Source: a virus. Taken from it: a DNA stretch of 64,000 bases. Where the stretch lies: positions 47,201-111,200 of the IMG/VR virus record IMGVR_UViG_3300030202_003733. One strand, written 5' to 3'. The first letter of the stretch is position 1, and each line of letters starts with the position of its first letter. A program made the translations under genes and the position numbers. Below are positions 9,191-56,818 of the stretch, in pieces. The notes under the pieces are model-generated. The model was not told the origin of the DNA, made no database searches, and saw nothing but the letters and a program-made list of their open reading frames with translations.

Positions 9191-10539
9191 GTTTTTCTAC
9201 TCTCCTTAAATTTTTTCCATTTTTCTTTTAGTAGCTCAGATTGATTTTTTGTATCCGTCGTCACTTCTGCATTCGTATTTAACGGCAGCACATTAATGCT
9301 CACTCTACTGGTGTCCATAAATATTGGGAAAATCAAACCGTCCGGGCCATTTCGGTTTTTAGCAACATAAATTCTTCCAGAGTTTGCAGCTTTGTCCTCT
9401 ACTGTTCTCGAAACAGAAAATATAAAGTCAGAAACAAAGCATTTAGAAAATGCCTCAGAGATCGACTCCATGGTGATGACTTCTGCGTTAAGTCCAGATC
9501 TATTCGTCTGTGATGCGGTCCACACCGGACAATTAAAATCCTGTGCTATCGCTCGCATCTCTTCGTAAATAGACTCCAACTCATTTCTTTTCTCTCTTTG
9601 ATTGTTTATTGGGCGTAAAAGATCACCGTAATCCACTATGACCATGTCGGGTTCAATATCCTTTACTCGCAACTTCTCAAGATGGTTTCTAATCGTATTT
9701 GTGGTAGCTGACTTAGTTGAATATTCTTTCACGATTAAAGACCCATCGAGGTCCTTGACTGACTCATAAATCATGTCTTTAAAGGAGACAAGACTGTCCA
9801 AGGGAACCTTGGTTAAACAACTATCGTACCTGTTGGCTATAATCGTATCACCCAATTCTAAAGTATAGTGGACAACAGTTTTGCCGTGCTTTAGGGCACT
9901 CGCGCCCAAGTGAACCAATACCATAGACTTACCAGCGCCAGTTGGGGCGATAACAACACCCAATTCGCCCTTGCCAAGACCACCTCTACAGATAGTATTG
10001 ATCTCGCTCCAGCCAGTAGTCACAGGGTCTCTGTGTTTAAATTCAAACCTGCGCTCAAAATCCTTTAGATAATCATAGCCGTGGTCCGGGCTCAAGCCCA
10101 AGGTGAGTGCATTGTTAATAATCTTAGAAATCTCGTCAAAAGAAGACGCTTGTAATAAGTCAACAGACTTAAGCATGGCTTCTTTCAACTTTTGTTTTTT
10201 GCAAAACTCCAGAGAGGTTTCCTTAATGAACTCTGGGCCTTCGACCTCTGTAGACTGAACTCTAGCGAAGTAGTCCTTTAGCTGAGTCAGCAGAGCCTCA
10301 TTTTCGTGCTCCATTGATCTAATGATCGTGTTCATTGTTTTGTGTGTTGGGTGGACCTTATATTTGGTTTTATAAGTTTCTATTTCCTCAACAAACAAAC
10401 GCAAATAATTATACTCTAGAAAACTTAAATCCAAGACCTCAAACATCTGGTCTGAAAAAGGCCTATCCTGCAATAGTAGCTGGCATAGGCCTTCTTGGAA
10501 GCTCCTCCCGAACTTGCCAAAATTGTCTCTGTTCTTCAT
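9187..10539 (-). CDS. Replicative DnaB-like DNA helicase
   Basis: Hexameric RecA-fold helicase that unwinds DNA at the phage fork, equivalent to T4 gp41. Of 450 residues, the N-terminal 150 form a helical domain. The ATPase core has Walker A APTGAGKS at 198-205, Walker B MVIVDYGDLL and later conserved elements (TASQTNRSG; FIFSVSR). It overlaps nrdJ by four bases and is preceded by TTGACA and a weak -10 box in the gap after the exonuclease gene. No helicase loader is recognisable nearby. Confidence 0.92.
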   Translation of the reverse strand: MKNRDNFGKFGRSFQEGLCQLLLQDRPFSDQMFEVLDLSFLEYNYLRLFVEEIETYKTKYKVHPTHKTMNTIIRSMEHENEALLTQLKDYFARVQSTEVEGPEFIKETSLEFCKKQKLKEAMLKSVDLLQASSFDEISKIINNALTLGLSPDHGYDYLKDFERRFEFKHRDPVTTGWSEINTICRGGLGKGELGVVIAPTGAGKSMVLVHLGASALKHGKTVVHYTLELGDTIIANRYDSCLTKVPLDSLVSFKDMIYESVKDLDGSLIVKEYSTKSATTNTIRNHLEKLRVKDIEPDMVIVDYGDLLRPINNQREKRNELESIYEEMRAIAQDFNCPVWTASQTNRSGLNAEVITMESISEAFSKCFVSDFIFSVSRTVEDKAANSGRIYVAKNRNGPDGLIFPIFMDTSRVSINVLPLNTNAEVTTDTKNQSELLKEKWKKFKESRKT

Positions 10540-25925: not shown

Positions 25926-26255
25926 TTAAATGTCCATGGCCGTGTCGTCTTTCATATCGCCCGAATCAGAATGATATCTTTCGATCTCATCCATGAGCGA
26001 ACCAAAGAACTCAAGCAGCTCTGTGTTTTTCTCTAGTTTTCCCACAATGTCTTCGTTATACTCGTATCGGTCTTCCTCGCTAAGAGTCATACCCTTTGCT
26101 TCAAAGGCATCAAGTATGGCAGAAGCGATAAACTTAGAAGTGGACCCCATCTCGGCTTGTCTGGCTGCGTGATACGCAAACCCGGCCTCCTGTATACGGC
26201 CCACCTCTTCTTTAATAATACTCTTTATTCTTTCTTTTGTAAGTTTAAGTTTCAT
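25926..26255 (-). CDS. Small protein with capsid-targeting-like leader, 109 aa
   Basis: The N-terminus, LKLTKERIKSIIKEEVGRIQ, matches the pattern shared by the proteins at 49067, 52787 and 54599: a basic-hydrophobic helix ending in an acidic pair. IQE followed by A (residues 21-24) fits the T4 prohead-protease site (L/I)xE-A. If cleaved, a mature protein of about 86 residues, acidic at the end (DSGDMKDDTAMDI), would remain inside the capsid. No catalytic motif is seen. It sits between the sheath and tube genes, where T4 has no such gene. The function is unknown. Confidence 0.6.
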   Translation of the reverse strand: MKLKLTKERIKSIIKEEVGRIQEAGFAYHAARQAEMGSTSKFIASAILDAFEAKGMTLSEEDRYEYNEDIVGKLEKNTELLEFFGSLMDEIERYHSDSGDMKDDTAMDI

Positions 26256-33375: not shown

Positions 33376-35322
33376 TTAAGCAGTAGCGCCAGCCTCACCA
33401 AGCAGACCACGACAGATCACAAGGCCATACATGTCCGGACGAACCATTTTCTTGGCGTACCGGGTCATGACACCCTTGCGGGGCACGAAGTCCTCGACAC
33501 CGAAGATGGTGGGAGTCGTCTGAAGCGGCACATACGGAGCGTACACGTAGCCAGACTCAAGGAAGCTGCCTCCACGGCGGCCAACCAGAATGACGTTTCT
33601 CGGGAAGTAGGGATCAACGTAAACGTCGAACTTCTTCGAGAGTGAGCCAGTGTTGACAGCACCAATGGTGCCCTTGTCCTTATCGGCAGTCACGTTGGCA
33701 CGGAAACCAGCGGTGAACTCAAGGATGTTGGCAACCTCGGGGCCACAGACCACGAAGTTAGCACCACCACGCAGAGTCTTGCGATGGATCTGAGCCGACA
33801 CGTCATTAATCGTCTCGATCAGAGTCTCATACCATTCGCTAACCGTACCGGTGAAGTCAGGAGCAGCCGAAGATGCACCAATTTCTTGACCAGTTGTACG
33901 GTTCACAAAGAGACCTGGCGAACGCGACCAATAGAGCGTTCCAGCAGTTGCGCCGTTGATAAGGTCAGCAATGATCTCACGATCGATTTCAAGAGCAATC
34001 TGCTCAGAGAGAATCGAAGTAAGTTCAACCTCAGCATCCAAGTTATGGTATGCGTTGAGGTCCTGACCAAGCTCGGGCGACCACTTAGCCTTCAGCTTCT
34101 TGGTACGAGCGGTGACAGCCACCGAATCGACCTTGATGTCGATCTCAGGGATGGTAGCCTCGGCTTCAAGAGCCCAGTCTGCCCGACCACGAATCGATCC
34201 AAGAGCCCCTTCAGTCGCGAAGTCATCAGAGACGGGGTAAAGCACCTTGGTCATCCCATCGGTATTGCCAAGGTTAGCAAACGACTCAGAAACACCAACG
34301 GAAGCGTTAGCGGCTGTCTCAGAAAGGCCACCCTTCAGAACGAACATGATGTGCGTCTTGGGATTGCCAGCCTTCCAAACACCGTTATTAGCGGCAGAAC
34401 CCGACCACTGGGTCAGTCTGCGGAGCTGAAGAACTTCGGTGTCGTCGCCTCTATTGGCGAATTGACCAAATGGTGCATTGGCAGACTTATCAAAAGCGTC
34501 ACCGCCAGAGAGAATAAGTGAAACCAAGTTATCATTTGTTGCAGAACCAGAATCAAACTGATCCAAGTTCGATGCAGCCACCTTAAAGATGGCGAAAGCA
34601 GAACCCTGCTGTCCGGCACTAGCCGAAGTGAACGCCGGGTCATGACGCAGAATGGAGTGAATTGCATCATTCACAACAGTGCCGCGAGCAAAAGTGGTAG
34701 CACCACCAACCTCAGCACCATCAACGTCCACAACCTTCACAACACCACCAAAGTTACCAGAGGCAACACAAGAGTAGCCAGTGGACAGAACGTGGGCAGC
34801 AGCAATTGTGCCTGGCTGGAAACTGCCAGTAGCAGAAGCATAACCATTGCTCAAGCTGTAGAAACCAAGCTCTTCATTGCGGCCATCGAGGCTCACACCA
34901 CCAGTAAGCTGCGAGGCAACAACCCCACCGCCGTACAATGACTCATCTTGCACTGCGTGCAGGCGAGGCATCGAAGATCCATCCGCACTGTACACAAAAT
35001 CCAAGAAGAAAATGAGTCCAGCAGGAAGGCTCATTGGCTGAACACTAACAAGATCGTTAGCAATCAAACCGGCAAACACGCGACGAACGATGGGGAATGC
35101 TACGGAAGCAAATCCTTCAACGTCACCTGCCTGCATTGTCGAAGCTTCACGCAGAAGCTCCTTGGCCTGGTTTTCCAGCAAGCGGGCCATGCTTGCTCTT
35201 TGTCTTTCATCGCCGAGTCCTTCCAAAAGTCCGGTTTTCTCCCACTTTCCAAGCAGAGCGGAACCTTCCTTAGCAAGGTCGCGATTGACAATACCTTCTG
35301 TAAGTTTATCTAAAACAGACAT
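33376..35322 (-). CDS. Major capsid protein, T4 gp23-like, 648 aa
   Basis: Forms the HK97-fold head shell. The N-terminal 59 residues are a removable helical segment: LLREAST (cleavage expected between E59 and A60) fits the prohead-protease site (L/I)xE-A. Then FPIVRRVFAGLIANDLVSVQ, PMSLPAGLIFFLDF, the central ATIPEIDIKVDSVAVTARTK, KLKAKWSPELGQDL and the C-terminal NVILVGRRGGSFLESGYVYA, YVPLQTTPTIF are all diagnostic for gp23 relatives. Its length exceeds T4 gp23 (521), because of an insertion in the middle (about residues 150-330). It lies behind the scaffold gene and ends at a strong terminator. Confidence 0.96.
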   Translation of the reverse strand: MSVLDKLTEGIVNRDLAKEGSALLGKWEKTGLLEGLGDERQRASMARLLENQAKELLREASTMQAGDVEGFASVAFPIVRRVFAGLIANDLVSVQPMSLPAGLIFFLDFVYSADGSSMPRLHAVQDESLYGGGVVASQLTGGVSLDGRNEELGFYSLSNGYASATGSFQPGTIAAAHVLSTGYSCVASGNFGGVVKVVDVDGAEVGGATTFARGTVVNDAIHSILRHDPAFTSASAGQQGSAFAIFKVAASNLDQFDSGSATNDNLVSLILSGGDAFDKSANAPFGQFANRGDDTEVLQLRRLTQWSGSAANNGVWKAGNPKTHIMFVLKGGLSETAANASVGVSESFANLGNTDGMTKVLYPVSDDFATEGALGSIRGRADWALEAEATIPEIDIKVDSVAVTARTKKLKAKWSPELGQDLNAYHNLDAEVELTSILSEQIALEIDREIIADLINGATAGTLYWSRSPGLFVNRTTGQEIGASSAAPDFTGTVSEWYETLIETINDVSAQIHRKTLRGGANFVVCGPEVANILEFTAGFRANVTADKDKGTIGAVNTGSLSKKFDVYVDPYFPRNVILVGRRGGSFLESGYVYAPYVPLQTTPTIFGVEDFVPRKGVMTRYAKKMVRPDMYGLVICRGLLGEAGATA

Positions 35323-35348: not shown

Positions 35349-36596
35349 CTATCTATCCATAATACCAGCAAGAACCTTCATCCTGTCATAGCCAGGACTT
35401 GGGGCTTTTTTCTTGCTTCTTGACGGCAAAGACATCGCAGGCTTACTAACAGCTTCGCTAAGTGATTGTGGCTTACTCTTTTGAGTAGAACCCACTGCGC
35501 TTTGAAGTGTTTCATAAATAACCTTCGTTTCTTCGACCGTCTTTGTATTTGAAATAGCCTCGACAATTTTATTTTTTTGCCGCTCATTCAGGGAGGTGCT
35601 ATTCAAAACATCATTAGTATACAAAAGCTTCGCATTCGAAAGGTTAACTTCCTCCAGCTTGTCCTTTGCAACCAAAACTAGTTGTTTAAGCTTGTCGTTA
35701 TTTTCAGCAAGCTTATCGTATGCGCCTTTAAGTGCGTCATACTTCTCTTTAAAATCATCATCTTGGGCTTTAGCCATCATAAGCTCATCGTTGTGTTCAG
35801 CGTCTTGCTCTGGAACACCCGCGTAGCCACTATTATTCGGGGAAACATCAACTTTAAGGAATTCTTTAACGATCTCCTCTAAGTTATCCTCAGTGATTTC
35901 AATCTCTTCTTCTTGGACGGCGGGACTACCATCAGGGTTCTTATGTCTCCTGCCTGGTTTCGCTCTGTCGGCCTGAGGGGTGAGAGATTCTTCCATCTCT
36001 TCTTCGTCTTCCTCGTGGAGACGATCGGCGTGCATACGATCACGACCTTGGTCGCGGTCTTCGTTGCCAGCGCGAGCCGCTGCCCCACCTTCATCAAGAT
36101 CAACGCCGCGACCCTTGAGAACATCGGCCTGAGTGGTCTTGCCGTCTTTGTTTAAATCTGGAAATTCTTTTTTCTCTTCGATTTCTTCGTCATCGGCACT
36201 TGTCATTATTTGGTTAACAAGCTCATCGCTTAATTCAGCAGCTTCTTCAAGACCCATGGCTTCGTCACCGGCGTCATCGCCCATCTCGCCACGAATTGCG
36301 TCTAAAAGTTCTTTGGCCGAGATTTCAAAGCTCTGTTGCTCTCCGTCCTCCGGGCATGGGCAAAGTTCTTCGCCAGCTTGGCCCGCATCGGGTACCTCGC
36401 CAACGTCCTCTTTGGAGTCAGAACCAAACATAGCGCCTGTTTCCTCTCCCTCATCCTCCGGCTGCTCCAAAAGAGCATTGACGGCCTCTTTAATTTGTGT
36501 AGCATATTTGCTTACGACCACGGCTTCAGCATTTTTCAAAGCTGCTTCTCGTAGTGCATCAGCATCAACTATTGCTTGTTCTAACAAAGATGACAT
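35349..36596 (-). CDS. Prohead scaffold protein, T4 gp22-like, with an EF-hand-like loop
   Basis: Acidic, helix-rich 415-aa protein placed directly before the major capsid gene, as the scaffold is in T4-type phages. The central part contains DLNKDGKTTQADVL (residues 147-160), a calcium loop pattern with D147, N149, D151 and D158 in the EF-hand/dockerin positions. The region near residues 270-330 forms a coiled coil (KGAYDKLAENNDKLKQLVLV). Potential prohead-protease sites such as IVE-A occur, expected because scaffold is digested before packaging. A variant of the late motif lies upstream. Confidence 0.75.
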   Translation of the reverse strand: MSSLLEQAIVDADALREAALKNAEAVVVSKYATQIKEAVNALLEQPEDEGEETGAMFGSDSKEDVGEVPDAGQAGEELCPCPEDGEQQSFEISAKELLDAIRGEMGDDAGDEAMGLEEAAELSDELVNQIMTSADDEEIEEKKEFPDLNKDGKTTQADVLKGRGVDLDEGGAAARAGNEDRDQGRDRMHADRLHEEDEEEMEESLTPQADRAKPGRRHKNPDGSPAVQEEEIEITEDNLEEIVKEFLKVDVSPNNSGYAGVPEQDAEHNDELMMAKAQDDDFKEKYDALKGAYDKLAENNDKLKQLVLVAKDKLEEVNLSNAKLLYTNDVLNSTSLNERQKNKIVEAISNTKTVEETKVIYETLQSAVGSTQKSKPQSLSEAVSKPAMSLPSRSKKKAPSPGYDRMKVLAGIMDR

Positions 36597-37489: not shown

Positions 37490-37888
37490 TTAAATTAAAG
37501 CTTTCCAATTTTTTCCACCAACAGATAAAATACCTGAGATATCTACCCCTGGGTCTGACGGATCAGTATCAGCAAGGGGATCCGCTGCTACTTGTGTTTT
37601 ATTTTTTTGTGCCGGTGCAGGTGTCAGACCCTCAAAAATATTTACACCGTTAAAAGCATCAGCCCCTATAGAATCTATGAGCTTCTTTTTTCCAGCAGAT
37701 AAATTATTATTGATAATCCTCTCTGCCTTAACAGGCACGACTCGTGCCGATTCCTCAATCACTGGACTGCCTAACCCAGTGACCACCTCGGATACAATAC
37801 CAGAGAGGATTCCCTCTTCTAATATAACTTCTTTAATACATTGTTTAATCAAAGGCTTCAATACCTTCTTCAAATCCCCAGACTTCAT
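37490..37888 (-). CDS. Small head/core-associated protein, 132 aa
   Basis: Its N-terminus (SGDLKKVLKPLIKQCIKEVI) is a basic amphipathic helix followed by LEE-G (residues 23-26), a possible prohead-protease site; several further LxE/IxE sites are present. The rest is low in aromatic residues, with a disordered Ala/Asp/Pro-rich stretch and a short C-terminal strand (GGKNWKALI). The start overlaps the protease stop by four bases (ATGA). It might be a core or internal protein; I cannot name a T4 counterpart. Confidence 0.6.
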   Translation of the reverse strand: MKSGDLKKVLKPLIKQCIKEVILEEGILSGIVSEVVTGLGSPVIEESARVVPVKAERIINNNLSAGKKKLIDSIGADAFNGVNIFEGLTPAPAQKNKTQVAADPLADTDPSDPGVDISGILSVGGKNWKALI

Positions 37889-38490
37889 TTTTCCTTCCTT
37901 AATATTTCATTTAAAGCGTAATTGATTCTATCTTTCTTGGAGAGACCCAGTGATCTCTTTTTTCCCTCTGTATACATATATGCCTCAAAGGTCGAGGGCT
38001 CGGACACAAAGTCAAAACATATTAGCTGGAAGTCGTCTTGTACAATTGTATTGCCGTTCCTATCTGAAACAGAGCCCATCCCCCTGGACGATATGCCTAG
38101 CTTTGCGCCAGCCTTAGCAAGTTCTTGCAGAACTTTACCGCATGGTGTATTTAAAACTTTAACTTTACCCATCACCTTATTACCTTCCCACCAAGAATCA
38201 ACAACCATGTGAGAAACCTTTTCCAGAGTAATGACAGAACTATCAGGGTGGTCTAGTTCTCCAAGGGCTCTACCCTGCTTGATGAGATCATTATATTTCT
38301 GCATCTCTCTTTTAAGAATTTCTTCACTATATATCCTTCCATTCCCATTTTTCTGGTCTGAAGCTTGCATGCACCCGGTCATAAAAAAAGCAGTCCCATC
38401 AGACATTTGCCTTTTTTCGCTTTCAGTTAGGTAGTCTTGACATATACCACCGTCACACAATTCATAGTATTCTCTTAGTAAGTTCTTCAT
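37885..38490 (-). CDS. Prohead core protease, T4 gp21-like
   Basis: Serine protease that matures the prohead by cutting scaffold, capsid and internal proteins at (L/I)xE sites. H81 in GELDHPDSS and S134/S135 in LGISSRGMGS are the expected catalytic residues, and LICFDFVSEPST provides the third conserved patch. 201 aa is near the T4 size (212). The leader of about 25 residues (LLREYYELCDGGICQDYLTE) is itself rich in LxE-type sites, consistent with self-cleavage. It precedes bS21, scaffold and capsid genes. Confidence 0.92.
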   Translation of the reverse strand: MKNLLREYYELCDGGICQDYLTESEKRQMSDGTAFFMTGCMQASDQKNGNGRIYSEEILKREMQKYNDLIKQGRALGELDHPDSSVITLEKVSHMVVDSWWEGNKVMGKVKVLNTPCGKVLQELAKAGAKLGISSRGMGSVSDRNGNTIVQDDFQLICFDFVSEPSTFEAYMYTEGKKRSLGLSKKDRINYALNEILRKEK

Positions 38491-40349: not shown

Positions 40350-42330
40350 CCGTGTCCGGCTCCATTTCCATTTTTTTCAAACTTTCTATCAAAAATTTAG
40401 CATCACCAGATGCGATAGATATGTCTTTTTCGCCCTTAAGCTTTTGTTCTACATTATAATTAGGTGACAAATCTTCATAAATCCTAGTCATTTTGCCTAG
40501 CCCCATTAATTCTTTTGCACCCGGTATCTCTTTGTTGACCCTAATGTTGGCACCAGTTCTCATATTCTTCCTTTGGGGCACCCTAAACTTTCTTTGATCG
40601 GAGACGACTGGCCTATAAAGTTTGCCCTTCGACTTAGCAGTCGTCGTGGCTGGCTTTCGCTTTCTGTCGTCAGTATCCCTTTTCGCTGGAGACGGCGTAG
40701 CTAGGAGAGTATCTTCCCCAGCCGCCGGGGCTTCTTCCCCACCCAGCGCACCTTCAGGAGGTGCTGCTGTCTCTTCTGGTTCTGAGAGAGCTTCACCGGT
40801 GTCGTCAGGTAGCGCCCCCATGCCAAGGTCGTCGCCACCAAGTCCTGCCATACCACCAGCAGCCAACTCCTCGCCGGCCATTTCGGCTATAGCATTAAGT
40901 TCAGCATCAAATTTACGATCGTAGAACATTTCTCTTTGGTTTCTAAGGAAATCGTCCTCAGAAAGTCCAAACATATTCTTAGCAACCCAACGCCTACTAA
41001 AGTAACCCTCAGTAGCAGAGGCAGCCGTATCGAACTTAGTCCTCCAGTGCTCCAGTTCTTGAAGTTCTGCCAATTTGGACGGGTTGTTAAGGGAGAGTTT
41101 AAAACCAATTAAGTCATCGCCTCGATACCCCAAGGTATACAAGTGTACAATCCCTATTTTTTCCATCTCAGAAACTAGCGCCCGCTGGAGTCTTTGAATA
41201 GTTCTAGCAAATCTAATGTCCTTTTGGGCCAACGTCGACTTATCTTCCTCGCCGCCCTCACCAAGGGTAAGATACGATTGAGGAACTTTGAGAGCCGCAA
41301 ACAATTTGTCTCTAAGGTATTTTACATCATCTATGTCAGAGGCGTGATTACCCCCAGGTAATGTGTCAACGGAAGCAAATTTTGTATCCCCTCTTGTAGG
41401 GATATATATATCTTCTTCAACACTAAGAGGATTATATCTAACGTCCACTCGACCACTGTTTGAATCAACTACTTGGTTCCTCTTCATCTGAGTCATTACT
41501 CTCTGCATATATTGTTCAACATCTTGTGGAGCAATATTCCCAACATCCACATAAAATATTCTTCTCTCCGGAGCCCTAACGATTCTGTAGGCCATCATCG
41601 CGTCCTCCATCAGAGTAAGCTGACGCCATATTCTCCTAGCTGGCTCTAGGACAGAGGTTCCGTAAGGGGACCATTTATCGTTCCCTAAAATTCTAAAGTG
41701 GGCGATCTGCCAATTCTCAAAGGTCATCCCGGCTGCGTTCCATTGATATTGAACATAGTTAGGGTTGGTTTTGTCCTCACCCTCAAGCCTTTCCAATTCA
41801 TTCGATGGAAGACCCACAGCAGCTTTAATTCCCATAGTATCGTCTATATCAAGATATAAGAAGAAGTCTCCAAACTTACACATGGAACGCGACCACCCAA
41901 ATAAATTAAACTCCACATTTAAAATATTATGATAGAGGGAATCTAATATTTCTTTTATTTCCTCATTTTGGCAGTCGATTGAAAGCATGCGAGTTAACTG
42001 CGAGGAGGTTGTCATCTCGTCAGCATATATATCCAGCGCAGATGCGATCTCGGGTGTGTACTCCATAGCGTCAAAGTCTTTGTACCTCTCGGCCCGGTCC
42101 TGCTGCGCCATCATATTCGACTGCATAGTCTCGAAGGGGTTGTACCTACTCTTCTTGAACTGCTGACCACTTGCGGACTTAAACGTACTAGCGAATTTAT
42201 CTATTTCTCTTCGCTTTATTCGTCTACCCGTCTGTGTTCTCCTGCCTACAATCGGGCCAGAGAATATTCTCGTTAACCTTTTAAAAAGGTCCGATGAGGA
42301 GTTTCTTGGATTTCTATCATTGTCTGCCAT
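40339..42330 (-). CDS. Portal protein, T4 gp20-like, 663 aa
   Basis: Dodecameric gate for DNA packaging. Diagnostic elements: TEYTP-like start of the core (DFDAMEYTPEIASALDIYAD), SIDCQNEEIKEILDSLYHNI, WQIAHFRILGN, GTSVLEPARRIWRQLTLMED, MVAYRI-type clip (MMAYRIVRAPERRIFYVDVG), and the crown helix region RKFDAELNAIAEMAGEELAA. T4 gp20 has 524 residues; the extra is an Ala/Gly/Pro/Thr-rich C-terminal extension (about residues 500-580). The start lies just after the terminase stop. Confidence 0.93.
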   Translation of the reverse strand: MADNDRNPRNSSSDLFKRLTRIFSGPIVGRRTQTGRRIKRREIDKFASTFKSASGQQFKKSRYNPFETMQSNMMAQQDRAERYKDFDAMEYTPEIASALDIYADEMTTSSQLTRMLSIDCQNEEIKEILDSLYHNILNVEFNLFGWSRSMCKFGDFFLYLDIDDTMGIKAAVGLPSNELERLEGEDKTNPNYVQYQWNAAGMTFENWQIAHFRILGNDKWSPYGTSVLEPARRIWRQLTLMEDAMMAYRIVRAPERRIFYVDVGNIAPQDVEQYMQRVMTQMKRNQVVDSNSGRVDVRYNPLSVEEDIYIPTRGDTKFASVDTLPGGNHASDIDDVKYLRDKLFAALKVPQSYLTLGEGGEEDKSTLAQKDIRFARTIQRLQRALVSEMEKIGIVHLYTLGYRGDDLIGFKLSLNNPSKLAELQELEHWRTKFDTAASATEGYFSRRWVAKNMFGLSEDDFLRNQREMFYDRKFDAELNAIAEMAGEELAAGGMAGLGGDDLGMGALPDDTGEALSEPEETAAPPEGALGGEEAPAAGEDTLLATPSPAKRDTDDRKRKPATTTAKSKGKLYRPVVSDQRKFRVPQRKNMRTGANIRVNKEIPGAKELMGLGKMTRIYEDLSPNYNVEQKLKGEKDISIASGDAKFLIESLKKMEMEPDTDET

Positions 42331-42333
42331 TTT

Positions 42334-43920
42334 TTATCCTTTCATTAGCCATATAAAATCGCTATTGTTTTTAAAGTAGTCTTCTCTTTTTTCTTCGATG
42401 GATCTCTTTTCTGTATATGAACTGCCAAGCTGTTCGTGTTGAAACCTCGTTGTTTTCATTGTGATCGCTCCAAAAAAAGCTTTCCTGTATTCCAAGTCGC
42501 GCTTGTTTACAGTAAGTGCAGTATCTCGAACCCAGCAACCAACCGCAAGAGCCATGACAAGGTCATCATTATAACCTCTCATTGCCTCCGGCTTGCCGCC
42601 ATTCCATATAAATGTTTCAAGCTCCTTGTGTGTCCTACTAGAATATATAGTAATTAGTTTATTTCTTATAAATTCTTCTAGCTTTGCTATAATAAGCGGC
42701 CTAGTCTTTGTAGATGTAGTGAAGCCTGGGACCGAGTCTCTTTTCATCCCAGCAAGAGCCGGGTCTATGAAGTCGTGTGAGCCTTTCAAAGAATAATATA
42801 TACTTGGATAGCCTAAAACCTCTAGCTTCTCTAAAACGGATATACCTATCCCAATATTATCTACAACCAAAAGACACTCGCCATACTCTTTCCCACACTG
42901 GTTTAGTATATTCGCGTACTGATCTAGTGTCGGCTTGCCACAATATTCAGCCACAACCTCCATAGTCTCTAGTTTTATTATGTGAAAAGCTGAGCTGTCT
43001 CTGCCGTCGCCACGCGCCACATCTGCTGTCAGGAGGTAACTGAACTCGGGGCTGAAGTCCTCCCAGATCCAGTAATTTCTGTCTAGCCCGGTCTTATATT
43101 TTGGGTCAGCCAAATTATTTCTCATGCCCTCTAGTAAATCACCATGTATTACGGTTTCACCAGAGGTGTTAAAGTTACACTCAAGCTCTTGTGCTATTTG
43201 CCGAGTGGACATATTCCTTGTTTCTTTCTCGTACCACTCTTCATCCCTTTCCGGGTGTACATCCCACGGAAGTATAGAGGGGAAAAAATCATTATTTTCT
43301 TGATCAGCGTCCACATATGTTTTGTGAAACCAATTCCCCACACCGTTAGGGGTAGAGAGAGCGATACATCGCCCACCAGTAGAAAGAGTAGGGTAGAGAC
43401 CTGTCCACAACTCATCAAGCCCCTCAACGTGTGCAGCCTCATCAATCACAAGGAGAGACAAGGCTTCGGAACGACCAGCATCGCCGCTAGTTGAGGTTGC
43501 TTTTATTTGCGAGCCGTTCGAAAGCTCAAATGACGCCCTATTATCTATTCTTATTTCTGCGACTCTTATCCACTTAGGCAGGCCTTTTACAATTGACTTT
43601 ACTTTTTTGACAAGGTTGGTCGCTGTTTGAAACTTGGTGGCCATAACAAGAATATTTTTTTCTCTATGGAAAAGCATAAACCAAACAACATAAGCAGCCG
43701 TTATAGTGGACAAGCCAAGCTGCCTCGCTTTCAAAATTACGTTAAAGCGGTGGTCGTTAAACCTCTCCAGCATCTCATCTTGGAACGGATAAGTTTTAAA
43801 CGGTATCAGTCCCTCTATCGGATGTGAGATCCTAACATAATTATTTATAAAGTAGCTAGGATCTTTGCCGGATTTTAAAATTTCCGACATCATTTGATTT
43901 TTGGATAACTGATATGCCAT
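42334..43920 (-). CDS. Terminase large subunit, T4 gp17-like
   Basis: DNA packaging motor and nuclease. The ATPase has a Walker A variant LKARQLGLST (residues 63-72), Walker B LLVIDEAAH and the coupling motif CIALSTPNG. The nuclease half has TADVARGDGRD, LLVVDNIGIG and YNDDLVMALAVG with the metal-binding aspartates. At 528 aa it is slightly shorter than gp17 (610). The portal gene follows four bases later. No clear small terminase subunit is recognised, but two uncharacterised genes (43927, 44573) lie directly upstream. Confidence 0.95.
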   Translation of the reverse strand: MAYQLSKNQMMSEILKSGKDPSYFINNYVRISHPIEGLIPFKTYPFQDEMLERFNDHRFNVILKARQLGLSTITAAYVVWFMLFHREKNILVMATKFQTATNLVKKVKSIVKGLPKWIRVAEIRIDNRASFELSNGSQIKATSTSGDAGRSEALSLLVIDEAAHVEGLDELWTGLYPTLSTGGRCIALSTPNGVGNWFHKTYVDADQENNDFFPSILPWDVHPERDEEWYEKETRNMSTRQIAQELECNFNTSGETVIHGDLLEGMRNNLADPKYKTGLDRNYWIWEDFSPEFSYLLTADVARGDGRDSSAFHIIKLETMEVVAEYCGKPTLDQYANILNQCGKEYGECLLVVDNIGIGISVLEKLEVLGYPSIYYSLKGSHDFIDPALAGMKRDSVPGFTTSTKTRPLIIAKLEEFIRNKLITIYSSRTHKELETFIWNGGKPEAMRGYNDDLVMALAVGCWVRDTALTVNKRDLEYRKAFFGAITMKTTRFQHEQLGSSYTEKRSIEEKREDYFKNNSDFIWLMKG

Positions 43921-49066: not shown

Positions 49067-51022
49067 TTAGAGTGTGTCAAGAGAAAGTTCAAGCTCTTCT
49101 TCGACCATAGTTAATAACTCTTTTAGGGCTAACGGATTAGCAAACGGTCTATGCTCACCACTTACATCTGCCCCGGTGACAGGGCCTATCAACCCTAGCC
49201 TGGCCCGGTAATTACTAACTGTTTTGCCTGGGTACAACTTCCTGAAAGATAGATTTGGCACAACGTGCAACTCAGGCTCGCCACCTTTTTTTGTGGGTCT
49301 TCTTAGGAGTTCTGCCGCATAATAATCTCCGGGATTATTAATTTGAAATGCCACTATTTTAGTCCAAAAATCCCAAAGCTTTTGTGAGTCGTAACCTATG
49401 TCTGCCAATTCATTTAAAACGTTAATGTATTCCTGTGCAAACGCTCTTAGGTTCTTAGGTTTAGACTTAGACAAAACCTTAGGTATGTCGTCTCCGTAGA
49501 ACATTCTAGAGTTTATTGAATCGACACAGCCTAATTTACCGGTCACCATTTGTGTTGCAAATCCTGCTTTCGCCAGCCCTAAACCCTTGATTGTTAGAAA
49601 TACCGTCATGACATCCAGTGGGTTAGTATCAGCAGATTTAAGTAAGCCTATCATATTATTATATACTTCTTGTCTATTTCCCCATAGTTCAAAGTATGTC
49701 TTCGTTGCGGGCACAGCCGAAACCTTGCTCACACCGTTTGATATTACAATCAATTCTTCCGGCGGGAGCTTCCTGTACTGCTCGTGTTTTAATAAGTCTA
49801 AAGATATTAAATATGCCTTAGGGCTACCAAAACCCATTCCCGAACCGACCAGGTCAGGATTTTTATTCATCGGATAATTTTCTCTCATCTTCCGATTACG
49901 GGGCGATGACCAACCCGATGGATTGGCTGCATTTGGGTCGGCGTCCTTCGTGGTTATCCACTCCATTAAGTGTGGGAAGTATGGCATGACTGTGGGCCAG
50001 TCAGTTCTTTGTGTTGCATACACAAACAAAATTGTCTCTGCTAGGTTCTCTGGGCTTTCCTTGACCCATTCATTAATCTGTGGGTTGTATTTACAAAAGC
50101 CGCTCTTCCCTAAGGCGTCCGGCGTTAAGCTTACCAGTGGCACCTCTCTGCCAACATCTTGAACTTTTGCTGGTACCTTCTCTGGTCCACCTTCTTCTGG
50201 TTCTGGAACTTTATAAGTTCTAAGTGACGGCAAAGGCAAAGTCTCTTCGGGGTCCTCGTCCTCATCTGGGTCCGACAGCGGGAGATTCATTTGAGTAGCC
50301 TCAGATAGGCCAGTAACATCCTCCGGCGGGACGGGCTCAAACCCCAAGTCTAGAAGCGTTTGCTGCCAGAGTGATTTAATATCCTCACCTTGTTCCTCAT
50401 CCATAACCTCACTGACCATTGACATTAGATCGTCTTTTGACAATTCTTGGCTTGGCTCTTCTTCCGGCATGACATCTGACGCGAGCACAGGGGCCCTTAC
50501 CATAAGTTTCCAATCCCCAGCCTCCGAAGCGTGGAAGTATATCTCCTCCCCAGATAAAATTTCTTTTTGTTCTGGATCCGTAACACTGAAGAAATGGCCA
50601 ACTGCTGGGTGAAAGCTAGCTTCTTCGAATTCGGACAAAACAGCGGGGTCCACCTCATTTGTTTTTGTCACCACTCCAGAGACACCAGCAACTAAAGTTC
50701 TCTTACCTGTTTTTACAATTTGCTTAGCTCCCGACTCGGATGTTTGGAATCTAATCGGGGGCTCAAGTCTAATTGCGTTTGTATAAGCTATAGGCGACCC
50801 TGTTCTAGTGCCACGGGGGCTTGAATTATATATGCCCACCATACCATTGCGACCCTCGTTACGGTTGGTTCTATTGGTGTGCAGCCACACTCGTTGTCCA
50901 ATAAGATCATCGCCCTCCACATATGCAGCCTCGGGGGCTGTGGGGACAATTCGAGGAGGCTTAAGAGACTCGTAATATGCCTCCCTTATCATTTGTAGAA
51001 GGTCGCTCTTGTTGATTTTCAT
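49067..51022 (-). CDS. Putative capsid-targeted protein with HhH glycosylase-like region, 651 aa
   Basis: Starts with the leader shared by other suspected head proteins (KINKSDLLQMIREAYYESL); IRE-A at residues 12-15 fits a prohead-protease site. The first half is disordered and acidic in part (DPDEDEDPEETLPLP near 251-265). Residues about 470-505 (FLTIKGLGLAKAGFATQMVT, GKLGCVDSINSR) look like a helix-hairpin-helix followed by the Asp-containing strand of HhH-GPD DNA glycosylases (L/G-x-VDTHV in that family). The domain call is tentative. It may bind or cut DNA on entry into the host. It precedes the Mre11-Rad50 gene and follows primase. Confidence 0.55.
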   Translation of the reverse strand: MKINKSDLLQMIREAYYESLKPPRIVPTAPEAAYVEGDDLIGQRVWLHTNRTNRNEGRNGMVGIYNSSPRGTRTGSPIAYTNAIRLEPPIRFQTSESGAKQIVKTGKRTLVAGVSGVVTKTNEVDPAVLSEFEEASFHPAVGHFFSVTDPEQKEILSGEEIYFHASEAGDWKLMVRAPVLASDVMPEEEPSQELSKDDLMSMVSEVMDEEQGEDIKSLWQQTLLDLGFEPVPPEDVTGLSEATQMNLPLSDPDEDEDPEETLPLPSLRTYKVPEPEEGGPEKVPAKVQDVGREVPLVSLTPDALGKSGFCKYNPQINEWVKESPENLAETILFVYATQRTDWPTVMPYFPHLMEWITTKDADPNAANPSGWSSPRNRKMRENYPMNKNPDLVGSGMGFGSPKAYLISLDLLKHEQYRKLPPEELIVISNGVSKVSAVPATKTYFELWGNRQEVYNNMIGLLKSADTNPLDVMTVFLTIKGLGLAKAGFATQMVTGKLGCVDSINSRMFYGDDIPKVLSKSKPKNLRAFAQEYINVLNELADIGYDSQKLWDFWTKIVAFQINNPGDYYAAELLRRPTKKGGEPELHVVPNLSFRKLYPGKTVSNYRARLGLIGPVTGADVSGEHRPFANPLALKELLTMVEEELELSLDTL

Positions 51023-51031
51023 AAAAATACC

Positions 51032-51958
51032 TCATGCTTCGATGATTTTCTTTAGTAAGTAGTTGTCAGAATTCATAATTTCTGAACTGTTTTTCTTATC
51101 ATTGAAAATGTCTCTTGGCATAACAGCGACATCTTCATAACCATGCGTGTTAACTTTGTGTACCTCAACACCGTAACCGTTAAGTTTATCAACAATTCTC
51201 ATAGCCTTTTTATCAGCGTCGGAATCTAGTGCAACATATACGGCAGGACTCTCTAAAATTATTTTTTGAAACAAGCGCGACTCCTCTCGCAAAGTAGAAC
51301 CTAGCAGAGGTATTGCATTACCTGCTCGTATAGCATCAAACACACCCTCTACAAGAACAATGTCCGAATCCCAATCAACATATAGGTCATTAAAAATTAT
51401 GTTTCTGCTGACCTTGGGGTTTGTATATTTTTTCCAATCATTCGAGTACGACCTGGCTACGAAATAATTCACTTCCCCCGTATAATCAAACGATGGAATT
51501 ATAATCCTACCAGCATATTCTCCACGAACACAATGACCTATCTTCCACTTAAGGATGTCTCTTTTGGTTATGCCACGGCTAGTGAGATAAAATATTGCCT
51601 TCTGTGCCGTGAGTGATGCAGGGTTACCCGTAAGTGTAACAAATTCTTTTGGCAAAGAAACACTCTGTCTCTCCTCAGGCTTACCATCAAAGAATAGATC
51701 AAACTTGGTCAGATCAACCTGGCCTGTGAGATTCTTCCATTCTCTAACCTGGTCGTATGTGCCGGACTTTCGCACAAGGCGAAGTATGTTCCTGCCGCTA
51801 GTATCGCATACCCAGCATTTGTACGCGTTTTTCTCAATGTTGACAGATAACTTTCTCTTGTGGTGATCACAAAAAGGACAATAAAATAGAAGTTCGTTAC
51901 CCGAGTGGTAGCATGAGCCAAGAGCGTCTTTTAGGATTTTTAATTTTTTATTACCCAA
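51032..51958 (-). CDS. DNA primase, DnaG/T4 gp61-like
   Basis: Makes RNA primers at the fork. The zinc-binding head has C27, C30 (CPFCDHH) and C48, C51 (CWVC), and the TOPRIM core has LVEGVFDAI (E204) and ALDSDAD (D245, D247). 308 aa is smaller than bacterial DnaG, as for gp61. The start is a TTG; the site before it is weak (GAGAGTGAATAAAA). It is separated from helicase and SSB by 35 kb, unlike in T4, and sits between two putative virion proteins. Confidence 0.93.
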   Translation of the reverse strand: MGNKKLKILKDALGSCYHSGNELLFYCPFCDHHKRKLSVNIEKNAYKCWVCDTSGRNILRLVRKSGTYDQVREWKNLTGQVDLTKFDLFFDGKPEERQSVSLPKEFVTLTGNPASLTAQKAIFYLTSRGITKRDILKWKIGHCVRGEYAGRIIIPSFDYTGEVNYFVARSYSNDWKKYTNPKVSRNIIFNDLYVDWDSDIVLVEGVFDAIRAGNAIPLLGSTLREESRLFQKIILESPAVYVALDSDADKKAMRIVDKLNGYGVEVHKVNTHGYEDVAVMPRDIFNDKKNSSEIMNSDNYLLKKIIEA

Positions 51959-51964
51959 TTTTAT

Positions 51965-52765
51965 TCACTCTCTAAAGTCCCCGTAAATATATACCATTGG
52001 CTCATCAATATCAAGAGACTTTTTTGTTAAGCCTGACATCGCCTTAAACGAGTGCTTGTAAAAACCATCGCGCATTTTGTAATCTACAGAAGGACCACCA
52101 TCAAACAAAATACCGTCTTGGATATTGAAGTCTAGTCCGATTGATACAATATCCTCAATAGTAACCAAACCAAGACGACTGCTTGAAACCACAATGACAA
52201 TATTACCCGATGAATCTTCCCCAACAAGACTTCTGTAATTTTTCTTCTTGGCAGATTCCGCTTTCATGATGTTCCTGTTTGCTTTGCCATTGTTTATACC
52301 AACCAATAGTGTCTGCGAGTTATGCTCCGTCAGTGGTGGGCTGCTGTAGGCTTGAACGTGTGGGGTGCCATTCTTTACATAGAAGTATCCGCCGCCCCTG
52401 ACACGGCTTGAGCGTCTTTTTTTATCAATCACTACAAGCCCTATCGGGTCTTGTTCGCCAAAGAAATTACTGTTTAGAAAGAAATCCTTATCTGTAGGCT
52501 TCTCTGTGGAAACTCCAAATTTCATCTTGTTTTTGGGAATCACAAAAACCTTTAAAGATCCCAAAGGTAGATATCCTCCGATGCATGAAGTCTCATACAC
52601 TGTCATGTGTTCTGTTTTGCTCAGAGTAGTGTAGTCATAAGACTCGCGTTGATCAAAGAACAAGTTGTTGTCAATCGCAGGCCAAACAAGCGGATCAATC
52701 ACAGGTGTTTGTGGTGTCGCGTAAAGCATTGCGGCAATGAATGTTGTAATGGTTTTAATGTTCAT
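51965..52765 (-). CDS. Secreted phosphodiester glycosidase-like protein (NAGPA/DUF2233 type), 266 aa
   Basis: Has an N-terminal signal peptide (IKTITTFIAAMLYATPQ) and then the pattern of NAGPA-type domains: NSNFFGEQDPIGLVVID near residues 92-110, GGGYFYVKNGTP, LVGINNGK, GNIVIVVSSSRLGLVTIEDI and DGILFDGGPSVDYKMRDG near 212-229, with the DGG motif. The human relative removes GlcNAc from a phosphodiester; phage and bacterial members act on cell-surface or wall polymers. Here it is likely to act in the periplasm. It lies between the hydrolase at 52787 and primase. Its substrate is unknown. Confidence 0.8.
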   Translation of the reverse strand: MNIKTITTFIAAMLYATPQTPVIDPLVWPAIDNNLFFDQRESYDYTTLSKTEHMTVYETSCIGGYLPLGSLKVFVIPKNKMKFGVSTEKPTDKDFFLNSNFFGEQDPIGLVVIDKKRRSSRVRGGGYFYVKNGTPHVQAYSSPPLTEHNSQTLLVGINNGKANRNIMKAESAKKKNYRSLVGEDSSGNIVIVVSSSRLGLVTIEDIVSIGLDFNIQDGILFDGGPSVDYKMRDGFYKHSFKAMSGLTKKSLDIDEPMVYIYGDFRE

Positions 52766-52786
52766 GCAAAAATGATAACATAAATT

Positions 52787-54586
52787 TTAAAAAAGTCGAT
52801 AGATTTCTTTGTATGTTTTCATATTTTGCGCCACTTCACTTATGTAACCAAGGGATGTAAGGAAACTATCGCCTCGTGGTGTTTTGAACGCTGGGATATA
52901 GTTTTGTGCGACAGGCTCCTGCTCAGTCTCCTCACATTTCTTTTTTATCTCGTCAGTACCGCAGTAGCTTGTGACATTGTCTGGGCTTGTATTATATCCG
53001 ACAAGTGCCATATCAAGAGCGGCTCGGCCAGTTGAAGTAAACTTCTGTCTAGAAACGCCGGGGGAGTCCGTGCTATAACCTATCTTAGCGGCCTTTTTAT
53101 ATAGCAAGGCGAGAATGCCTATCGCGGCTATTACCGCTTTAGAGTAATTCGTGACAGACATAGCTCCTTGAATTTCCATTTTTTTAGCGTAATCAGCAAG
53201 CTCAGCATCTTCATCACCAAAATGTTGACCATATCTCACTTGAGCAGGGCCTATAGATGTGTCCCCTACCGTCAGAAGAAGCCAGCCAAGTGCGCCGTCT
53301 CGATATGCTATTGATTTAGTAATCGGATTATTGGCAGTGATCGATGCCATGTTTTCAACCCATTTGAGGACATTGTATCTTTTGCCTTTGCCAAAGTCAC
53401 TCTCTCTGCCAGTGACGCCTACCGCAGCATTTGTTAAGAGCCGAAGAGTTTGTTTATCAATTCCCAAAGATTTCATTATGGACCCTTGACTAAGTGTAAC
53501 TGCGAGCACGGCGTTTTTTATATTGTCAGGCAAGTTAGTATCATTAATTTTACTAGTCGCCACGTCTGCCTTGGTGGGGCGCTGGGCCATCGACCCCTTC
53601 TCCTCTGAAAGCACCTGGGGTGACTTGTTCCACATAATCTTAATTGACCCTCTGCCACTACTATTTTTTATGTAGCTTAGCGGTTCTGCCTTCACGGTTC
53701 CCTCGGCTTGATGAAAAATAACTGGCTCGCCATTGCTTATAGCCCCTACAAACCCTAAGTGTGTATTCATGCCAAAACCCTTACCAGATAGGATGGTATT
53801 ACCCGGCACCCATTTGCCGCCCTTTTGAACAAAAAATGGCCCGTCTCCAGCCTTTGTCTCTCCCCCTTCTTGATTTGGGCTCATGCCTGTGGCCCCCTGT
53901 TTAAAAGCTGCCTTAAAGTTCGAACTACCTTGATAATAAAGCCCCACTATATCTCCGAGCTTCAAAGCGCGTTGCCACATAGATTGATCTGGTATAAGTT
54001 TTTTTACAAACTTCTCCACATCTGAGTTTCGCTTTGCTCTGATATTTGCAAAAAGCTCAGTGGCCTCAATAGCAAGATCCTTGCTTATATTTTTAAAAGC
54101 AGAATATTTGACCTGGCTTAAGCGGTGTTGGTGCCACGCATTGCCCCTGCTACCTCCGGTTGTTTTCAGCGTATCAGAAACCCACTGAGCGCATCCCCGG
54201 TCTTTACATTGTAGCACATTACTTTTTTTACCCGCCTTAATGTCTTCCTCGGCGGTCTTTAGGTTTTCAGGCAAGCCCTTGTAATACTGTATGCCCTCTT
54301 GCCCGAATATATAATTATAAATTGATTGAAGTACCCCTGGTCCTCCCTCTTCACCGGCAGCCTTCAGAACCTTGCCTAAACTTTCGGCGTCCGTAATCCC
54401 TTTTCTTGCAAGTTTGTTGCCTTCTCTCTTATAAGCGTCATAAGACTTTTTGTCGGGAGATAAAATATAATAGAAAACGCTATCACCCGGCAGCTCAATT
54501 GCACCACGGGGCAACGAGGCCTCCTTCAGGTAGGCCTTCAGTTCTTCTTCAATGATAGATTCTATATCGGATTTAGTTACTATCAT
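52787..54586 (-). CDS. Two-domain peptidoglycan hydrolase with capsid-targeting-like leader, 599 aa
   Basis: The leader (VTKSDIESIIEEELKAYL) ends in LKE-A at residues 20-23, a prohead-protease type site. A cysteine peptidase-like domain follows: C132 in GCAQWV and H276 in NTHLGFVG fit the Cys/His pair of NlpC/P60 or CHAP folds. The C-terminal part looks like a lytic transglycosylase: E395 in GRESDFG, SIGPAQV at 444-450 (as SxGxxQ) and VGYNTSP at 529-535 (as AYNxGP). The two activities would cut the peptide stem and the glycan. If packaged and ejected, it would open the wall for DNA entry, or it may act as the endolysin. No other endolysin is seen in the window. Confidence 0.75.
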   Translation of the reverse strand: MIVTKSDIESIIEEELKAYLKEASLPRGAIELPGDSVFYYILSPDKKSYDAYKREGNKLARKGITDAESLGKVLKAAGEEGGPGVLQSIYNYIFGQEGIQYYKGLPENLKTAEEDIKAGKKSNVLQCKDRGCAQWVSDTLKTTGGSRGNAWHQHRLSQVKYSAFKNISKDLAIEATELFANIRAKRNSDVEKFVKKLIPDQSMWQRALKLGDIVGLYYQGSSNFKAAFKQGATGMSPNQEGGETKAGDGPFFVQKGGKWVPGNTILSGKGFGMNTHLGFVGAISNGEPVIFHQAEGTVKAEPLSYIKNSSGRGSIKIMWNKSPQVLSEEKGSMAQRPTKADVATSKINDTNLPDNIKNAVLAVTLSQGSIMKSLGIDKQTLRLLTNAAVGVTGRESDFGKGKRYNVLKWVENMASITANNPITKSIAYRDGALGWLLLTVGDTSIGPAQVRYGQHFGDEDAELADYAKKMEIQGAMSVTNYSKAVIAAIGILALLYKKAAKIGYSTDSPGVSRQKFTSTGRAALDMALVGYNTSPDNVTSYCGTDEIKKKCEETEQEPVAQNYIPAFKTPRGDSFLTSLGYISEVAQNMKTYKEIYRLF

Positions 54587-54598
54587 CTAGGAAGTTCC

Positions 54599-56818
54599 TT
54601 ATGCTACGCCAGTGTCGCCACGGCCAGCGCGGCCAGCCCTCTTTGCAAGTCTGCCTGCGGCTTTCTCGCGACCTGCGCCAGAAGCAAGCTGTGACAATTT
54701 ATCTGCCCTAGCGGCTCTAACTTGTTTTGCAATATTTTTAAGCTGCGGGTCTCCGACGCCATACTTGTCTTCTGCATTGGCAAGAATCCTATCTGCTGCC
54801 CTTCTTACTTCGCCAGGTGTATTAGCTTTAGCAATCATACCACGCCAACCTCTTGCCTGTGGGGCCGGGGTCTTAGCTTTTGGCATCGGCACATCTGAGG
54901 TCATGGCGACCTGACGTGGCGGAGTTGTCATTTTTACAACGTCATCGCGGTCAAGCTTGACACCTTTGCCTGCTCTTTGTGCAATAGATGCAGGTGGTTT
55001 GGGTGAGGGTCTATCCGCGACCGTCTCAATATCACCGTAGGTCTTCACTGGAAGGGTAAGCTTTTGGCCAACACGAATCAAGTCAGGATTTTTCTCCAGT
55101 TCTGGATTTGCCATGATCATATCCCGGACAGTTATGCCGAGTCTTTGTGCGATCTTGGAAACAGAGTCACCCGACTTAACAGTGTATTCCTCATTAAGGT
55201 TGATCTTTCTTCTGTGAGTTTTCATCACATCCACGGTCTCTTCTTTAACCATTGACTCTATAAGTTGTTTGGTGATTTTCATTGTTTTAGTTCCTTCTTG
55301 TATACCTTTGTCATCTGCATAAGCTTGTGCAACCCTACCCCTTGCAGGGGTGCCTGGTGCTGGTGCTTTTTTAAATCTTTGTTTACGAGCCCTATCAGCG
55401 CGTTTACCAGCTTTTCGGTCAGCCGATGGTCTAGTTTCTTGTCTCGTGAGCCTAGCCTTTTTTGTTTTGAATTCTTCAATCTTCTTGTCTGCTATCCTAA
55501 CAATATCTGCTGGCAAGTAATCGGTTTTGAGGCTAACATACCTTTTCATAATAGCTGGTAGATTGCGAGGCTTCTCCGGTATTGCTCTTCTGTCCGGGTC
55601 CCTTCCTTTTTGAGCATACTCTGTTCTTATCCTCTGTAGGTCCGCAATTGCGCGATCATACTCTTGCATAGCTTTAGAGCCCGTGAACGTAGGGACCGGA
55701 ACGTTTTCTTTTTTCTCTTTCTCTACTTTAGCCTGTTTTGGCTCAACTTTTGTTTCAGGTGTTTTTGGATCGGCTTTACGCTTAGGAGTAGGGCCGCCTT
55801 TGAGAGACGCCTTGTATTCCTCCCCATACTGTGCCCATGCTTTTCTTATATATGAATTATTGTATGGTCCGCTTGGGTCAAGATCAATTTGTCTAGCGTA
55901 GTCCGAGTGGGTCTTATTTACCCATGCTCTGAATTTATCACCAGTGGTTCGGTCTACAATAACACCGCCAGTAAGAACTGCCATAGCGACTCTGCCGCCG
56001 CCGCCCTTCTTGTCATCTTTCTCTTCTTTTTCCTCTTCGGGCTCTTCCTCTTCACCACCAAGTATTTTATTTTCATCTAACGCTCCGGTCTTAGGATCCC
56101 ACTGATCTATCTTATGACCATCGAGCAGGGCCAGCGCGATTGTTTGAAGGTTTTTACCAAAAGCCTTAACTAAACCACCCGCAGCGAGGCCAGCGCCGGC
56201 TGCACCGGCTGCTCCTCCCGCAGCAACACCGGCAGGTATTGATAGACCACCAGTAAACCCAGCACCAGCGAGGCCAGCAACCCCTCCGGCAGCAGCACCT
56301 CCAATACCGCCAGCAACAGCAGCAGCGCTGCCGGCAGCAGCGGCTTGGATCGCCGCGTTGGTCAGTTCACCCTTTATGTGTCTCCTCAGGGGCGCACCAG
56401 CATATTCTTTGTATGCGGCCTCAATTAATTTGTTAGTGCCTTCATCATTAGCCAAGTTACCAATAAGTTTTGATTCATTCGTGCCAATACCCGTGCCGCC
56501 TTTCATAGATTGGTAAAGTGCTCGCACTCTAGCATTTATTAGAGCTGTCCCGGATTTACCAGCGTGCTCGTTATAATAGTCCATGGAGGACTTGCCTCCA
56601 GCAATACCTCTTGACGTCATTTTCCAAGCAGCCAGCAGATGTTTCCATTTGATTTTACCCTCTCCGGGGACGAGCCAGTACTCCTCACGCGCTTCCTGTG
56701 GGTCCTCTGCGGCGGGCGCGGCCTCTTCCTCTTGTTCAGATATTTCGTTTAAGTATCTTTTATACTCTTCTTTAACAATCTTGTTGAGGTCTTGAGGGTT
56801 CATTTTTACTTTGCTCAT
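54599..56818 (-). CDS. Putative ejected membrane-active protein with glycine-zipper and LysM domain, 739 aa
   Basis: Leader VKMNPQDLNKIVKEEYKRYL (LNE-I, ISE-Q sites near 22-29). Residues 152-218 are extremely Gly/Ala-rich (for example GGIGGAAAGGVAGLAGAG), a glycine-zipper pattern that could insert in membranes. A long charged region follows, then at M513 a second leader KITKQLIESMVKEE, and a LysM domain at about 543-591 (EEYTVKSGDSVSKIAQRLGI; NPDLIRVGQKLTLPV). AAGGA precedes the internal ATG (55282), so an independent 227-aa LysM product may also be made. The role as ejected pore or wall-binding protein is inferred. Confidence 0.65.
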   Translation of the reverse strand: MSKVKMNPQDLNKIVKEEYKRYLNEISEQEEEAAPAAEDPQEAREEYWLVPGEGKIKWKHLLAAWKMTSRGIAGGKSSMDYYNEHAGKSGTALINARVRALYQSMKGGTGIGTNESKLIGNLANDEGTNKLIEAAYKEYAGAPLRRHIKGELTNAAIQAAAAGSAAAVAGGIGGAAAGGVAGLAGAGFTGGLSIPAGVAAGGAAGAAGAGLAAGGLVKAFGKNLQTIALALLDGHKIDQWDPKTGALDENKILGGEEEEPEEEKEEKDDKKGGGGRVAMAVLTGGVIVDRTTGDKFRAWVNKTHSDYARQIDLDPSGPYNNSYIRKAWAQYGEEYKASLKGGPTPKRKADPKTPETKVEPKQAKVEKEKKENVPVPTFTGSKAMQEYDRAIADLQRIRTEYAQKGRDPDRRAIPEKPRNLPAIMKRYVSLKTDYLPADIVRIADKKIEEFKTKKARLTRQETRPSADRKAGKRADRARKQRFKKAPAPGTPARGRVAQAYADDKGIQEGTKTMKITKQLIESMVKEETVDVMKTHRRKINLNEEYTVKSGDSVSKIAQRLGITVRDMIMANPELEKNPDLIRVGQKLTLPVKTYGDIETVADRPSPKPPASIAQRAGKGVKLDRDDVVKMTTPPRQVAMTSDVPMPKAKTPAPQARGWRGMIAKANTPGEVRRAADRILANAEDKYGVGDPQLKNIAKQVRAARADKLSQLASGAGREKAAGRLAKRAGRAGRGDTGVA
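55276..55299 (-). promoter_or_regulatory. Possible internal translation start within the 739-aa gene
   Basis: AAGGAACTAAAACA precedes the in-frame ATG at 55282, a ribosome-binding-like AAGGA at nine bases. The peptide that starts here (KITKQLIESM) repeats the capsid-targeting-like leader. It may start a separate LysM protein. The longer frame has no stop, so both forms are possible. Confidence 0.45.

Follow-up and report, generated by a model that had tools for sequence, protein, structure and literature searches.

Candidate capsid-targeting leaders shared by unrelated proteins of uncultured T4-like phages

In bacteriophage T4, the internal proteins IPI, IPII and IPIII and the protein Alt carry a short N-terminal capsid targeting sequence (CTS). 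Residues 4 and 7 of the CTS are needed for targeting and residues 8 and 10 for processing, and the head protease gp21 cuts behind the motif [LI]-x-E (PMC9026906). Alt modifies the host RNA polymerase, and IPI, once injected, inhibits a restriction enzyme (PMC9958956). A CTS-like role has also been proposed for the propeptides of head proteins in phages phiKZ and SPN3US (PMC5694885). Here we analysed N-terminal leaders encoded in a window of 64,000 nucleotides (positions 47,201-111,200) of IMG/VR record IMGVR_UViG_3300030202_003733, a sequence of 183,023 bases from a T4-like phage with a single head protease of the gp21 type (S77). The original prediction, made from the window alone, had proposed that a family of large proteins, including a peptidoglycan hydrolase, shares a CTS-like leader that is removed by this protease. 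Unrelated proteins were found to share near-identical tags of 14-22 residues ending in a head-protease cut site, and for this reason they are probably loaded into the head, trimmed and injected. It is quite probable that the leaders are CTS-like, interchangeable tags which would load a large injected cargo.

Sequence comparison distinguished three classes of leader. Class A, the leader of the original prediction, has the consensus MKITKSQLKQIIKE↓E (the arrow marks the predicted cut). Class B, a second leader encoded outside the window, has the consensus MKLLLENWRKYLNE↓x. Class C, MKKQILSEEFKRMQKLAGIITE↓S/N, was found on 52 proteins with 37 different bodies, in related phages and in the cultured Flavobacterium phage immuto. 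The leaders are 14 residues long in classes A and B and about 22 in class C, and all three classes terminate in [LI]-x-E, the gp21 motif. Classes A and B align without gaps (K2, hydrophobic 3, L/W 8, K/R 9, I/Y/F 11, I/L 12 and E14), and the degenerate DNA patterns of class A and of class B each matched at least 120 stretches of IMG/VR.

In class A, I12 was present in 212/220 proteins and E14 in 213/220, while class B showed φ12-x-E14 (φ, hydrophobic residue) in 184/228 and a glutamate at residue 15 in a further 27. When class B proteins were selected on residues 1-8 only, conservation reached E14 and then dropped; for class A, selected on residues 1-5 only, it reached residue 16. The class B leaders with one extra residue had a hydrophobic residue 13 in 19/27 cases, compared with 10/184 when the glutamate was at residue 14 (Fisher p = 6e-14). 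The hydrophobic residue thus shifts with the glutamate, and φ-x-E moves as a unit. Since conservation in class A stops at I12-K13-E14-E15-L16, the main class A cut site is probably I-K-E↓E. Later L-x-E sites were rejected as the main site, with only weak enrichment at residues 20-22. Among the cuts first proposed, IRE-A of the protein at 49067 coincided with the conserved site, but IQE-A, LKE-A and LNE-I showed only weak secondary enrichment; multiple cuts in class A proteins are possible.

The leaders are modular. A total of 456 class A/B proteins from public viral contigs fell into 320 unrelated body clusters, 268 of them singletons, and five large genomes each carried 5-17 such proteins. 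When 991 open reading frames (ORFs) from a random sample of contigs were scanned for class A/B leaders, two matches appeared, both spurious. Sequence comparison also revealed exchange of leaders between cargos, as natural swaps on homologous bodies. In the clearest of these, L297 (class A) and L138 (class B) have different residues as far as E14 and closely matching ones beyond it (64% identity over the whole length), with the boundary exactly at Glu14. The C-terminal domain of the class A protein at 49067 stood behind class B leaders in four relatives (L129, L142, L109 and L277), and the homologous bodies of a SAM-lyase-like protein and of a deoxynucleotidase were likewise found under other leaders. 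Where leaders of a single locus have the same residue, the codons differ in 31-36% of cases, and therefore selection acts on the leader peptide.

The majority of the cargo had no known domain. Recognisable domains, several of them weak matches, were SAM-lyase-like, NUDIX, RNase_T, HNH, endonuclease I-like, Zeta-type kinase, GNAT, SET, M23 and pentapeptide, in addition to the deoxynucleotidase, and these proteins resemble enzymes of early host takeover or counter-defence. Leader proteins of both classes (L136, L161, L319 and others) have in common a short C-terminal domain with the end ...KLYKDLxxxHPYIIDRIK(I/V).

We then compared the leader ends with the head-protease sites of the lineage. The S77 protease gene (37885..38490, minus strand; PF03420, 8e-27; phrog_207, 2e-51) encodes a conserved propeptide that ends in L-T-E↓S; in 77 proteases this site was L-T-E followed by a variable residue, with the glutamate invariant (77/77). 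The major capsid protein Gp23 (33376..35322, minus strand; PF07068, 3e-74) has the site L-L-R-E↓A (LLREAST) in its N-terminal region, kept in 95 relatives as L-[RK]-E↓A/S/T/N, with mostly A or S behind the cut. The capsid and protease sites together indicate that the sites of this lineage are φ-x-E with a free following residue (P1'), as in the leaders. S77 was present as a single copy in 18/19 leader contigs of at least 135 kb, in 16/50 leader contigs of 20-90 kb, in 12/17 class C contigs and in 1/50 random viral contigs. The S77-negative leader contigs are probably fragments, because 10/11 of them also had no capsid gene, and for the same reason their lack of S77 was not taken as a counter-example.

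In the window itself, all the N-termini quoted in the original prediction were present, on the minus strand. The class A protein at 25926..26255 (109 residues; N-terminus MKLKLTKERIKSIIKEEVGRIQEAG, read as MKLKLTKERIKSIIKE↓EVGRIQE↓A) is encoded between the sheath and tube genes. The protein at 49067..51022 (651 residues; MKINKSDLLQMIREAYY, read as MKINKSDLLQMIRE↓A) has the C-terminal domain shared with the four class B-leader proteins mentioned above. A profile search of its family against solved structures gave no match, and AlphaFold, run on it with four relatives, returned no usable fold (predicted local distance difference test, pLDDT, 40). The protein at 52787..54586 (599 residues; MIVTKSDIESIIEEELKAYLKEAS, read as MIVTKSDIESIIEE↓ELKAYLKE↓A) gave no confident domain and no usable AlphaFold fold (pLDDT 34). 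The protein at 54599..56818 (739 residues; MSKVKMNPQDLNKIVKEEYKRYLNEIS, read as MSKVKMNPQDLNKIVKE↓E) has an Ala/Gly-rich, charged middle and a C-terminal LysM domain. AlphaFold modelled the leader as a helix with low confidence. A peptidoglycan hydrolase was not established among these proteins, as the protein at 54599 showed only the LysM (binding) domain (E-value 1.9e-11) and that at 52787 a sub-threshold Amidase_6 match (E-value 0.038).

A second, internal class A leader begins at residue 513 of the 54599-56818 ORF, with a Shine-Dalgarno-like AAGGA 9 nt before an ATG at 55282. This may be a possible nested gene (54599..55282, minus strand), with the leader MKITKQLIESMVKE↓E followed by LysM, or the whole ORF may represent fused leader proteins. 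Also within this gene cluster, at 51965-52765, is a phosphodiester glycosidase-like protein (NAGPA, E-value 6e-7) with a hydrophobic N-terminus.

The motif search across the whole record, which the original prediction had suggested, yielded more leader proteins outside the window. The fixed-spacing pattern φ-x-x-φ-φ-x-E (E at residue 14 or 15) was found in 11/229 ORFs of this phage, against 0.29 (maximum 2) in 200 shuffles. In random viral contigs the same pattern occurred in 1/991 ORFs against 1.0 expected, equal to chance. Outside the window there were two more class A proteins, at record positions 9670 and 10164, and at least 10 class B proteins, mostly near both record ends. The cohort in this phage comprises at least 15 proteins, uses other leader types as well and is wider than first seen. 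Its shared marker leader stood, but the description of its members as large did not, with median body lengths of 117 residues for class A and 205 for class B. The protein at 37490 had been taken as carrying a shorter leader variant; the LEE-G sequence is there (...EVILEEGIL), but a conserved core protein of the lineage, with its own L/F-E-E-G site, is the better reading.

A 9-mer, AACTAATTA, was chosen from its enrichment in this phage, where 8 of its 10 occurrences lay 10-60 nt upstream of start codons. In the relative G018, an independent test because the 9-mer was chosen from this phage, 7 of 9 occurrences were so placed, and none of 200 permuted 9-mers matched this placement. In both phages it stands upstream of structural and leader genes (in this phage at record positions 10164 and 178049 and at structural genes; in G018 at L474, L478 and L480). 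The T4 late promoter TATAAATA was rejected as the common element, with one upstream occurrence. AACTAATTA is thus a promoter-like element with a putative role. It bears on co-expression, which the original prediction had named as a check, but it was not outstanding in 2/5 genomes.

In 257 Gb of cellular genomes, the class B DNA pattern was matched by two stretches only, which are phage-like and were not counted as cellular occurrences. Leader queries against 50,697 phage records returned only Flavobacterium phage immuto, or nothing, and the likeness to the T4 leader is a match of pattern alone. A literature search on these leaders, or on a marine CTS system, found nothing beyond the T4 and giant-phage work. 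The group carrying the leaders consists of uncultured T4-like viruses of bacteria, widespread and mostly marine. A conserved, class C-like N-terminus, MSKK-LLNE-x-x-[VI]R-[RQ]-[FM]MKLA...F[ILV]TE, was also noticed at record positions 42201-42884 (L004 4201-4884) and in L469, L198 and L295.

Independent lines of evidence thus support the proposal that a gp21-type protease removes a CTS-like leader which marks a cohort of head cargo: the modular, exchangeable leader, its φ-x-E end with the form of the capsid and protease sites, the association with S77 and the shared promoter-like element. From these features we infer core binding, packaging, cleavage, ejection and the function of the cargo. During head assembly the N-terminal leader would bind the prohead core, so that any protein bearing it would be enclosed. 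Once the shell is closed, the S77 protease would cut behind the [LI]-x-E at the leader end, and this cut would belong to the reaction by which the capsid protein, and probably the core as well, are matured. The cargo, once released, would be kept in the head, be ejected with the DNA and act in the first moments of infection.

Several observations weigh against this proposal. P1' of the leaders varies more than in T4, where A/G/S is usual, and 17/228 class B starts have no φ-x-E at residue 14 or 15. The bodies are mostly acidic (median isoelectric point about 5), while the T4 internal proteins are described as basic (PMC9026906). The association between S77 and the leaders is partly lineage-level and is not proof by itself, and the role of the 9-mer, uneven among the genomes, is putative. 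We found no virion proteomics on phages of this lineage, and a literature search gave no report of virion N-termini for Flavobacterium phage immuto 2-6A.

The leaders could instead direct proteins to another part of the virion (tail or baseplate) or to a non-virion site (inner membrane or replication compartment), the φ-x-E end being incidental. With a median charge of +2.5, the class A leader would be a positively charged, amphipathic helix that could bind membrane, and the leader gene at 25926 lies between tail genes. However, the three classes have their C-terminal pattern in common and not the helix charge, φ-x-E is conserved, moves as a unit in the insertion variants and is the same as in the capsid and protease sites of the lineage, and S77 is found in the near-complete leader contigs; we regard another destination as unlikely. 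A leader that binds the core or acts as a scaffolding tag, on proteins which belong to the prohead core and at maturation are lost by degradation or expulsion, and not injected, would fit the L-x-E sites of the lineage core and scaffold proteins and the many small, acidic class A bodies with no known domain. This reading is very unlikely, as class B bodies include enzymes that would be senseless as scaffold and the bodies are not conserved between phages.

Tandem leader genes and leaders on unrelated bodies would also be expected if a DNA cassette (promoter, ribosome-binding site and start region) were spreading by recombination with a functionless peptide. This is scarcely credible, since the abundant synonymous variation within one locus already contradicts it; conservation at the peptide level ends at the predicted cut, and the indels are coordinated. 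Within the CTS-like reading, the leader classes might form a packaging code, for different core layers, copy number or ejection order, with a large and rapidly exchanged set of injected effectors listed in the genome by tag type. We hold this idea with considerable doubt. Known domains are few in class A, where the bodies are shorter, and enzymes are more frequent in class B, where they are longer, although some homologous bodies carry either tag.

The head module lies on the minus strand in a T4-type arrangement of terminase, portal, S77 protease, small core protein, probable scaffold and Gp23, with tail genes next; the terminase, portal and tail genes were named from reading their sequences. 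By position and alignment, 35349..36596 encodes a probable scaffold/core protein with the conserved N-terminus ...A-L-[KR]-E↓A. The small core protein adjoining the protease (37490..37888), aligned in 60 relatives, is gp67/68-like by position only, and its function is putative. The closest cultured capsid relatives were Flavobacterium phage immuto, Microcystis phage Mel-JY01 and Rhodothermus phage RM378, with about 41-49% identity across half the protein. Elsewhere in the record (about 139,600-162,300; L006 and L007), a long gene run resembles sugar-nucleotide/glycan biosynthesis, judged from N-termini (sialic-acid-synthase-like, epimerases and glycosyltransferases).

Injected phage proteins are normally identified phage by phage, by mass spectrometry. 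If the leaders do mark them in the sequence, finding injected proteins would become a genome search, and in this abundant, uncultured group of phages hundreds of uncharacterised proteins would be candidate first-wave effectors in counter-defence and host takeover. The leaders would also offer new tags by which proteins could be loaded into phage heads, and the T4 CTS, which is known on only a few proteins, would be one case of a larger system of interchangeable tags. A cultured relative makes this system testable. Flavobacterium phage immuto 2-6A has Gp23, an S77 protease, several N-termini resembling class A and two proteins of class C, but fewer leader proteins than this phage.

The giant phages phiKZ and SPN3US also have ejected head proteins with N-terminal propeptides cut after glutamate, by S80 proteases (gp175/gp245). 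However, the SPN3US propeptides are often longer than 100 residues, in contrast to leaders of 14-22 residues and an S77 protease here, and neither phage has a short leader common to hundreds of bodies. T4, like the phages described here, has an S77 protease and a Gp23 capsid protein in one phage and a short N-terminal leader starting with MK and ending in [LI]-x-E on unrelated carrier proteins, and its cargo includes counter-restriction and host-takeover proteins. In the T4 sequence NC_000866, both ipII and ipIII start with MKTYQEFIAE↓A. With the cut glutamate as the point of reference, T4 residues 4, 7 and 8 correspond to leader residues 8, 11 and 12, conserved as hydrophobic in classes A and B. 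Hydrophobic residues thus stand 6 and 3 before the cut glutamate in both systems, and W/F8 and Y/F11 of class B and L8 and I11 of class A match the spacing of Y4 and F7 in ipIII. The CTS of T4 is 10-19 residues long, compared with 14 (classes A and B) and about 22 (class C) here, and there is no alignable sequence beyond the pattern. The phages described here differ further in having at least three leader classes with a variable P1', 5-17 class A/B proteins in each of five large genomes, hundreds of bodies and a different, mostly acidic cargo.
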